Source: Pseudidiomarina tainanensis (GTDB lineage: Bacteria; Pseudomonadota; Gammaproteobacteria; Enterobacterales; Alteromonadaceae). From it: a stretch of DNA of 64,000 nucleotides. Every line of letters begins with the position of its first letter. Position 1 is the first letter of the stretch. The position numbers and the translations under genes were made by a program. Positions 54,544-57,061 of the stretch are shown piece by piece. The DNA lies in NCBI RefSeq assembly GCF_004214835.1, contig NZ_PIQJ01000001.1, forward strand, positions 1,178,001-1,242,000. Reading direction: 5' to 3'. Under the pieces are notes generated by a model. That model saw nothing but the letters and a program-made list of their open reading frames with translations. It did not search any database and was not told the DNA's origin.

Positions 54544-56409
54544 CTATTCATCACGAAAGGCATGATATATGGTTTCAGCTAATTCGCGACTAATTCCTGG
54601 CACTGCGATAAGTTGCTCAATACTAGCTTGTTTTACTTCCTGTAATCCACCTAGATTTTGCAATAATTTTTGCCGTCGCTTCGCGCCTATACCTGGAATA
54701 TCTTCAAGTTTTGATGTGCGTCGTACCTTGGCGCGGCGCTGACGATGGCCGGTAATCGCAAAGCGGTGAGATTCATCGCGAATATGCTGAACCAGATGTA
54801 ATGCCGGCGCATCAGCTGCCAACGGAACGGTCGCATGACTACCGGCTAAAATAAGGGTCTCTAAGCCCGGTTTTCGGGATTCACCCTTTGCGACACCAAT
54901 CAATAACGGTGATTTGACGCCAGCATCAACGCCCCAATCATTAAAGTAAGCTTCGGCTTGAGCTAATTGCCCCTTGCCACCATCAATAAATAAAATATCT
55001 GGAATGGCGGCCTTGCCTTCATCGCTTAATAGCGCGGCATCAAAGCGTCGCTGCAATGCTTGCGCCATGGCAGCATAATCATCTCCTGGCGTAATACTTT
55101 TAATGTTGAAACGTCGATAATCTGACTTCTTCGGGCCTTGACGGTCAAATACCACGCATGAGGCTACCGTTTCTTGGCCCATGGTATGGCTGATATCAAA
55201 ACACTCCATACGCTGAATTGGATGCTCAAGGTCAAGCACTTGCTCTAATTGTTGCAGGCGCATCACCATGGTGTTTTCTTGATTTAGTTTGCTTTCAAGC
55301 GCGTTGAGCGCATTCTTCTGCGCCAAAATTTGGTATTGCTTGCGTTCACCACGTACGTTGTGAGTCATACGCACTTTCTGCGCAAGTGCCTGCTCGAGAA
55401 CTTGGAGGTTATGCTCAGGATCAAGCACTTGTGCGGCATTTGCCTCGGGTAAAATAATTTCACGCGGTAATCGTCGTCCGACTTGATCATTCAGGTAAAA
55501 TTGCAGCATAAATGCGAGTAAAATTTCCGCGTCGTCGGTATTTGCTGGAACTTTAGGAAAATAGCTACGACTCCCCTGCACCGCTCCTTCACGAATAAAT
55601 AGCAGATGCACCGCCGCAATGCCGCCGCGACGCACAAACCCGATGACATCGAGTTCTTGTTGATTGCCAGTCACAGCATTGCGTTCTTGTACTTTGCGCA
55701 TTGCTGCAATTTGATCCCGAAAGCGCGCAGCTCGTTCAAAATCCAAGCTCGTACTGGCACGTTCCATATTTTGTACCAATTGATCGATAACTTGTTGGTT
55801 CTTACCTTGCAAAAATGATTTTGCTAACTGTACTTGCTCTTGATACTCGGCGTCGGTGCAATAGCCTTCAACACAAGGCGCTAAACAGCGCTTAAGTTGA
55901 TACTGCAAACAGGGTCGGCTACGCGCTCGATAATAAGAATCTTCGCACTGACGCACTGGAAAAATCTTTTGCATGAGGCGCAAACTTTCGCGCACGGCAA
56001 CACCACTCGGAAATGGCCCAAAATAATCGCCTTTTTCACGACGTGCACCGCGATGAAATGCTAAACGCGGATGTTGATGGCCACTGACAAAAATATAGGG
56101 ATATGATTTATCGTCACGTAACAATACGTTGTAACGCGGTCGATATTTTTTGATGAAGTTATTTTCAAGGATCAGTGCTTCAGCTTCGGTATTGGTAACC
56201 GTCACATCCATTGAGGCAATTTGCTTGACTAGAGTTTGGGTCTTTGGCGTGTCGATATTTTGTCGAAAATAACTGCTGACACGCTTCTTAAGATCTTTCG
56301 CTTTCCCCACATAGATCACCACACCATCACCATCGTACATCCGGTAGACGCCCGGTTGATGGGTTAAATGCTGAATAAATGCTTTGGAATTAAATTGCGA
56401 ATCAGTCAT
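54544..56409 (-). CDS. uvrC: UvrABC excinuclease subunit C
   Basis: A 621-residue nuclease that makes both cuts around UvrB-marked lesions. The N-terminal GIY-YIG domain ([18 protein letters not shown], about 20-37) makes the 3' incision; a UvrB-binding UVR motif (about 205-240) follows; the RNase H-like domain ([26 protein letters not shown]) makes the 5' incision; and tandem helix-hairpin-helix motifs close the C-terminus. I start at the ATG at 56409, where E. coli UvrC starts, although AAAGGT lies right against it. The start overlaps uvrY by 8 bp. Confidence 0.96.
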
Positions 56410-57061
56410 ACCTTTGCGTTGGGTCGATTTCAACAAGCCCTGATTGTATCGCAAGATGCGTCAATTCGACATCTCCTCCGACACCAAGTTTGCTAAAAAT
56501 CCGATAACGAAATGTATTTACGGTCTTGCTACTGATATTCAGATACTTTGCTATATCAACAACACGGATGCCGCGCCCTAGCATTTGCGTCACTTGTAGC
56601 TCACGCTCGCTCAGCGATTTCAACAAACGGCGGAAACTCTGAGTTCGAGGGTTTTTCGCCAAATACTCAGCTACTTCGCTCGCTACGTACATCTGTCCGC
56701 GGCTGATATTGGCACACGCACGCTCAAACTCTTCATAACGCGCGTGAGTCAACAAAAAGCCATCGACTTTATTGGTATTACATTGAAAATCCAGTACATC
56801 TTGGAAATTTTCGGCCCATAGTATTATCTGAAGATCATTGTATCGTCGGTGTAATCGGCGCCAACTTTCTATCGTCCCATCACCTGCAAGTCGACTGGAT
56901 AAAATGACAGCTGCGAACGGATGATTTTTAACTTCATCACGTAATTCATTAATGGTCGAAACACTTGCTACTACTCGGTATTTGTTATTATTTGAGCTCA
57001 GTGTTGTATACATTCCAGCACGCAACAAATCGCTTGGTATTGCAATAATAAAGTCGGTCAT
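56402..57061 (-). CDS. uvrY: UvrY/GacA-like regulator with a degenerate receiver domain
   Basis: A 219-residue protein in the uvrY position, overlapping uvrC by 8 bp. The LuxR-type helix-turn-helix (about 148-210) is intact: [44 protein letters not shown], all close to E. coli UvrY. The receiver is not: aligned without gaps at the start, Asp8-Asp9 become Ile8-Pro9; the phosphoacceptor Asp54 region LMDMSMPG becomes ILSSRLAG; the active-site Thr becomes Ala83; and the Lys of GYLSKG becomes Thr105. It cannot be phosphorylated in the standard way and may act constitutively or through another signal. GacA/UvrY normally controls csr small RNAs. Confidence 0.9.

Follow-up and report, generated by a model that had tools for sequence, protein, structure and literature searches.

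Roughly 6% of the receivers in a representative bacterial set are pseudo-receivers, and a 2025 review described their control as a mystery (PMC12632262). That review describes several atypical regulators, ChxR, HP1043, RitR, FrzS, and VpsT, in which a receiver fold without phosphotransfer residues precedes an output domain. A gammaproteobacterial regulator, SsoR of Shewanella oneidensis, is likewise phosphorylation independent, but it belongs to the OmpR/PhoB type and retains its Asp (D52); in Shewanella, BarA/UvrY is described as a normal pair (PMC11045786). In a survey, Idiomarina is listed among the genera with GacS, GacA, and LadS (PMC7366521).

Here we describe a UvrY/GacA ortholog of the Idiomarinaceae. 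It shares with the atypical regulators of PMC12632262 a receiver fold lacking phosphotransfer residues; it differs in that the site has been lost family-wide in the ortholog of a normally phosphorylation-dependent, pathway-central regulator. In contrast to the pathway known for UvrY, GacA, SirA, and VarA, neither a BarA sensor domain nor csrB in its ancestral position was found in its lineage. Searching PMC12632262 for the terms GacA, UvrY, and Idiomarina gave no match, and title and abstract searches of open-licence PMC articles found no literature on a GacA/UvrY pseudo-receiver in Idiomarinaceae.

Gene, locus, and orthology

The window is a stretch of 64,000 nucleotides from Pseudidiomarina tainanensis. 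The genes and domains considered here are as follows.

56402..57061, minus strand: uvrY/gacA ortholog with a pseudo-receiver, 219 amino acids (ORF list, NCBIfam, alignment)
56690..57061, minus strand: pseudo-receiver domain, residues 1-124 (Pfam, predicted (beta-alpha)5 fold, Foldseek)
56450..56620, minus strand: LuxR/GerE-type DNA-binding domain, residues 148-204 (Pfam, alignment)
54544..56409, minus strand: uvrC, whose ATG start overlaps the gacA end by 8 nt (conserved uvrY-uvrC arrangement)

A preliminary description made from the sequence had placed 56402-57061 in the uvrY-uvrC position, and this was correct: the gene lies on the minus strand and overlaps uvrC by 8 nt, compared to 4 nt in E. 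coli. The top NCBIfam model for its product was UvrY/SirA/GacA (3.1e-36, with the next model at 3.6e-16), although the score of 125 bits is below the curated cutoff of 280. With Pfam, Response_reg scored 18 bits, which is subthreshold (cutoff, 30.2), and GerE scored 55.9 bits, above its cutoff of 23.5. The protein has in common with E. coli UvrY (b1914) the uvrY-uvrC arrangement, its length, a LuxR-type helix-turn-helix (HTH), and a near-identical recognition helix, in agreement with the resemblance of the DNA-binding half noted at first. On these sequence grounds, the window gene is a true uvrY/gacA ortholog.

The source genome, 2.37 Mb in size and 99.9% complete, falls with Pseudidiomarina, and the nearest aligned row to the window protein, at 96% identity, is that of Pseudidiomarina marina. 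A search for UvrY-like genes at E ≤ 1e-20 returned one gene per genome in 62 Idiomarinaceae genomes (26 + 19 + 17); the sensitivity of this search is incomplete, since 11 of 395 genomes gave no match. The source genome yielded no second, intact GacA, its remaining matches (L002-L004) being NarL-type regulators with 20 to 27% identity.

Receiver residues across the family

Four sites in the receiver differ from E. coli UvrY at the residues on which phosphotransfer depends.

57035..57040, minus strand: Ile8-Pro9 replacing the Mg-binding acidic pair Asp8-Asp9 (alignment to E. coli UvrY)
56897..56899, minus strand: Ser55 replacing the phosphoacceptor Asp54 (alignment to E. coli UvrY)
56813..56815, minus strand: Ala83 replacing Thr82 (alignment to E. 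coli UvrY)
56747..56749, minus strand: Thr105 replacing Lys104 (alignment to E. coli UvrY)

Unlike E. coli UvrY, the window protein therefore lacks the acidic pair, the phosphoacceptor Asp, and the Lys, and all five signature positions are changed (D8 to I8, D9 to P9, D54 to S55, T82 to A83, and K104 to T105), as the preliminary description had read them. These losses are common to all 41 aligned rows from Idiomarina and Pseudidiomarina, the window protein included (row L080, a different regulator, was left out). D54 is kept in 0/41 rows (Gly in 14, Cys in 14, Ser in 10, His in 2, Phe in 1), as is K104, and the T82 position holds Ala in 22, Gly in 16, Cys in 2, and Ser in 1. Neither D8 nor D9 is kept in any of the 40 rows with a residue there, row L067 beginning 16 residues late through start choice. 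The Asp closest to the phosphoacceptor site in the window protein, D61, sits at the start of alpha3 and not at the end of beta3; it is found in 34 of the 41 rows. By comparison, intact relatives keep D54 in 20/21 rows and K104 in 21/21, with the DD pair in 15/15 of those whose start is covered (six of the 21 are truncated there). L082, an intact-type row, has Gly at D54.

The loss extends one genus beyond Idiomarina and Pseudidiomarina, into Aliidiomarina, where it is apparently stepwise. The Aliidiomarina set comprised 12 genomes (two identical here), whose genus label was inferred from the placement of A. celeris in the GacA tree, plus A. celeris itself. In these 13 rows D8, D9, and K104 are gone throughout and the T82 position holds Cys in 10, Thr in 2, and Ser in 1. 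Asp remains at D54 in 6/13 rows, two of those six being identical. Since the acidic pair and Lys are gone everywhere while Asp persists in these six, the Asp looks to have been lost perhaps later, in a stepwise manner. Weak modification may occur at D54 in the six rows.

A tree of 54 GacA rows contained a branch with 100/100 support separating the 14 intact from the 40 pseudo-receiver rows. This branch is long (midpoint rooting divides it into 2.48 and 0.12 changes per column), in part reflecting the trait itself because the receiver columns were included. Aliidiomarina forms one side of a branch with 100/98 support, and the grouping of Idiomarina with Pseudidiomarina is weakly supported (63/90). 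On the simplest view, the pseudo-receiver would have a single origin, in the common ancestor of Idiomarina, Pseudidiomarina, and Aliidiomarina. The record "Idiomarina loihiensis SN11" (L039, genome G014) groups with Pseudidiomarina in both the GacA tree and the genome grouping and is possibly misnamed.

Selection on the two domains

We estimated dN/dS (NG86) separately for receiver and HTH in 20 close pairs from Idiomarina and Pseudidiomarina. Receiver values ranged from 0.013 to 0.127 in 14/20 pairs (dS was saturated in the other 6), and HTH values ranged from 0 to 0.062 in 19/20 pairs. Of six intact pairs, 4 had computable receiver values, which ranged from 0.033 to 0.129. Many dS values were near saturation, yet dN itself was small (0.003 to 0.116). 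Because these ratios are far below 1, strong purifying selection, not decay, acts on both halves.

The gene might instead be a decaying relic, its frame held only by overlap and cotranscription with uvrC. The 8-nt overlap and the long stem branch are in keeping with this idea, and the overlap could partly explain conservation of the frame, yet it would not hold receiver dN/dS as low as it is in the 14 computable pairs. In addition, all 41 Idiomarina/Pseudidiomarina rows stay open to near the usual end, at 204 to 230 amino acids (the 204 being L067, with its late start choice). A relic is scarcely credible on this evidence, and dN/dS and conservation together lead us to reject decay or frameshift. 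The receiver is clade-wide, old, constrained, and predicted to fold as a whole (below), as expected of the selected pseudo-receiver first proposed from the window sequence.

Predicted structure of the receiver

An AlphaFold2 prediction from 35 window and locus sequences (pLDDT 91.5, pTM 0.86) gave a complete receiver, five strands alternating with five helices, followed by the HTH. Its nearest solved folds by Foldseek were NarL-family regulators (LiaR, RcsB, and EvgA). One part of this predicted receiver carries a clade-specific signature.

56777..56884, minus strand: alpha3-beta4-alpha4, residues 60-95, with clade-specific invariant T63, W67, R69, R73, Q87, D88, and Q93

At eleven receiver positions, all 41 rows share a residue that is unlike the intact consensus, and 7 of these positions lie in alpha3 and alpha4 (hypergeometric P = 0.0009, calculated post hoc). 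C94, in alpha4, is present in 39/41 rows from Idiomarina and Pseudidiomarina versus 0/21 intact GacA proteins. These features raise the possibility that the protein is a ligand-, redox-, or partner-gated regulator, in which a new surface made of W67, R69, R73, Q87, D88, Q93, and C94 would bind a protein or small molecule or form a disulfide. Other pseudo-receivers offer redox and ligand precedents (PMC12632262). However, A. celeris lacks both C94 and this surface (Thr at 94, Val at 67), the test of clustering was post hoc, and the partner is putative. Such gating is possible, then, but we lean against it as the whole account.

BarA, the neighboring hybrid kinase, and CsrA

The BarA sensor domain sCache_4, present in 6 of 36 genomes overall, was detected in 0/23 Idiomarinaceae. 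It was also absent from 7 of the 13 other genomes (G027, G029, G030, G031, G034, G103, and G137). GacA, which was read in genomes other than G038, G047, G103, and G137, is intact in five of these sCache_4-less relatives (G027, G029, G030, G031, and G034). Because the sensor is missing also where GacA is intact, its loss is not specific to the clade but wider, and it probably came before the change in GacA.

A BarA-like hybrid kinase is encoded 4 kb from csrA in the source genome (L144:3079-5262; C1:1653578-1655761). It is predicted to be cytosolic, with the architecture HisKA-HATPase-REC-REC-Hpt and no sensor or membrane part, and it gave the best score against the BarA model (512 bits; cutoff, 890). 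A BarA-like match lies at most about 7 kb from csrA in 25/26 Pseudidiomarina genomes. Relative to csrA the kinase lies 3', whereas canonical barA lies 5' in the seven genomes compared (G035, G039, G042, G043, G045, G048, and G053); because it occupies the opposite side, position does not support orthology to barA.

This kinase bears on whether the regulator continues to receive phosphate, at a different residue or from Ser/Thr kinases, and remains coupled to the kinase near csrA. Its full set of HisKA, two receivers, and Hpt, its resemblance to BarA, its recurrence beside csrA, and the invariance of D88 in the regulator are the points in favor. On the other hand, the Mg-binding pair and Lys are gone, so the usual acceptor pocket would be missing, D88 sits on alpha4, and the kinase is misplaced for a barA ortholog. 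Continued phosphorylation is accordingly an improbable reading of this locus.

CsrA itself was found in 26/26 Pseudidiomarina genomes. Several of these genomes, a group in which csrB was not detected, carry two to four csrA-like genes (four in G012).

csrB and GacA boxes

In relatives G027, G028, and G103, csrB lies between DUF3549-DUF3301 and an acetyltransferase-like gene, and in G033, where the contig is short, DUF3549 adjoins it. Pfam confirmed DUF3549, DUF3301, and, for the source genome's gene, GNAT; the G103 gene at the acetyltransferase place matched no Pfam family. Downstream of DUF3549/DUF3301, GGA occurs 18 to 19 times per 220 nt in G027, G031, and G137. DUF3549 was present in 26/26 genomes searched, enabling inspection of the same place in the family. 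There, csrB was absent in 23/23 Idiomarinaceae, with 3 to 8 GGA per 220 nt on the same strand. The GNAT gene comes next in 19 of these 23 (17 by text motif, two by eye), and four Aliidiomarina carry other genes instead. In 15/23 Idiomarinaceae, the position ancestrally held by csrB contains a small Mpo1-like (DUF962) gene (e.g., L273:883-1134, plus strand of the locus).

The Rfam CsrB model found no match in 26 Pseudidiomarina genomes under strict filters, or in the source genome under laxer ones. Laxer filters over 28 genomes gave one good Idiomarinaceae match, in Aliidiomarina G227 (2.2e-6); the others were weak. A match in Idiomarina G177 (0.007) lies beside coding sequence, and its GGA motifs are too few to convince. 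Because RF00018 did not report a second Aliidiomarina candidate (G281, below), a CsrB-type RNA elsewhere in Pseudidiomarina could be missed.

Among 11 csrB loci of relatives, five had GacA-box sites with at most 1 mismatch (0/2000 shuffles) and four had sites with 2 (55/2000 shuffles reach 2; one of the four is the low-complexity L106); the best boxes at L103 and L104 had 4 and 3 mismatches. By genome, the ancestral csrB locus carried a box with 1 mismatch in G031, G103, G028, and G033, 2 in G027, and 3 in G137. The source genome has no exact GacA box and five sites with one mismatch, around which the 2- to 3-kb loci reach at most 6 GGA per 200 nt. Its count of sites with ≤2 mismatches is below control (53 versus 75, forward). 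Of nine sites placed among ORFs, six were intragenic, two at converging gene ends, and one between tandem genes. Upstream of gacA, 38 loci showed no conserved palindrome, and the best GacA box had 3 to 5 mismatches.

The regulator could also be a constitutively active GacA, its pseudo-receiver locked in an active dimer and its direct targets always on under the control of gacA transcription. The HTH is strongly conserved, recognition helix included, and constitutive activity and intrinsic dimerization are among the pseudo-receiver models named in PMC12632262. The scarcity of GacA boxes in the source genome and the absence of csrB from its ancestral place point the other way, as do the residues at K+2 (S, R, N, T, Q, D, and H), which are not the activating A, I, L, or V given in the same review. 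We regard this as rather unlikely. The preliminary description had raised constitutive activity or another input as possibilities for the Gac/Csr branch; csrA is present, but because csrB is gone from the ancestral locus, the classical GacA-to-csrB step seems to be gone and not merely constitutive, with a divergent RNA elsewhere possible.

A candidate CsrB-like RNA in two Aliidiomarina genomes

Two Aliidiomarina genomes, G227 and G281 (loci L180 and L181), have a GGA-rich stretch upstream of a deaminase gene (by Pfam), which we take to be tadA. GGA counts are 14 and 12, against shuffled means of 7.1 and 6.8 and maxima of 14 and 15 in 2000 shuffles. Both stretches end in a conserved terminator and are preceded by ACTGGCGC-N5-TTGC, a sigma-54-type -24/-12 motif. 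In predicted folds, only 6/14 and 3/12 GGA fall in hairpin loops, and the best GacA box of the two has 4 mismatches. A sigma-54-like motif was found at 0/10 csrB loci of relatives, most of which carry a GacA-box-like palindrome. Thirty genomes were inspected next to tadA, and apart from these two none showed a CsrB-like RNA there (2 to 6 GGA per 220 nt in the remaining 28). The source genome has 28 sigma-54 sites versus 5 in the control, and none is followed by >5 GGA per 200 nt or by a CsrB-like RNA. The candidate, known from two species, with a moderate excess of GGA and a motif recognized post hoc, is a lead, not a result.

The candidate would fit a stepwise, family-wide dismantling of Gac/Csr, in which BarA was lost first and more widely, GacA became a pseudo-receiver with a new input surface, csrB was deleted from its ancestral locus, CsrA was kept, and a CsrB-type RNA under a sigma-54 promoter came to stand at a new site in part of Aliidiomarina. 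We advance this sequence tentatively, as possible but not favored. If it is true, CsrA titration in part of Aliidiomarina would now answer to an enhancer-binding protein and no longer to GacA, because the CsrB-type RNA there would be under a sigma-54 promoter.

Discussion

Building on the residue losses, their distribution over the clade, the selective constraint, and the predicted fold, we infer a function for this ortholog. Our preferred explanation, which we consider likely, is that it is a selected pseudo-receiver regulator that binds DNA independently of phosphorylation and is detached from BarA and the ancestral csrB. The receiver would have become structurally intact but free of the residues for Mg-dependent Asp phosphotransfer in the Idiomarinaceae ancestor, and purifying selection would keep the protein as a regulator whose DNA binding continues without phosphorylation. 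It would no longer stand in the pathway from BarA through GacA~P and the GacA box to csrB, of which CsrA remains. Its activity would be set by protein level, by intrinsic dimerization, or by a partner or ligand at the new alpha3-alpha4 surface.

These findings urge caution on homology-based annotation, since one survey credits Idiomarina with GacS and GacA (PMC7366521). They also provide a natural before-and-after series, from relatives with intact GacA through partial loss in Aliidiomarina to full loss in Idiomarina and Pseudidiomarina, in a regulator with well-known partners and targets. A halophilic marine family appears to have kept the DNA-binding half and receiver shape of GacA/UvrY and lost its sensor-driven activation site, and the series may show what becomes of a response regulator after its kinase and main target leave.
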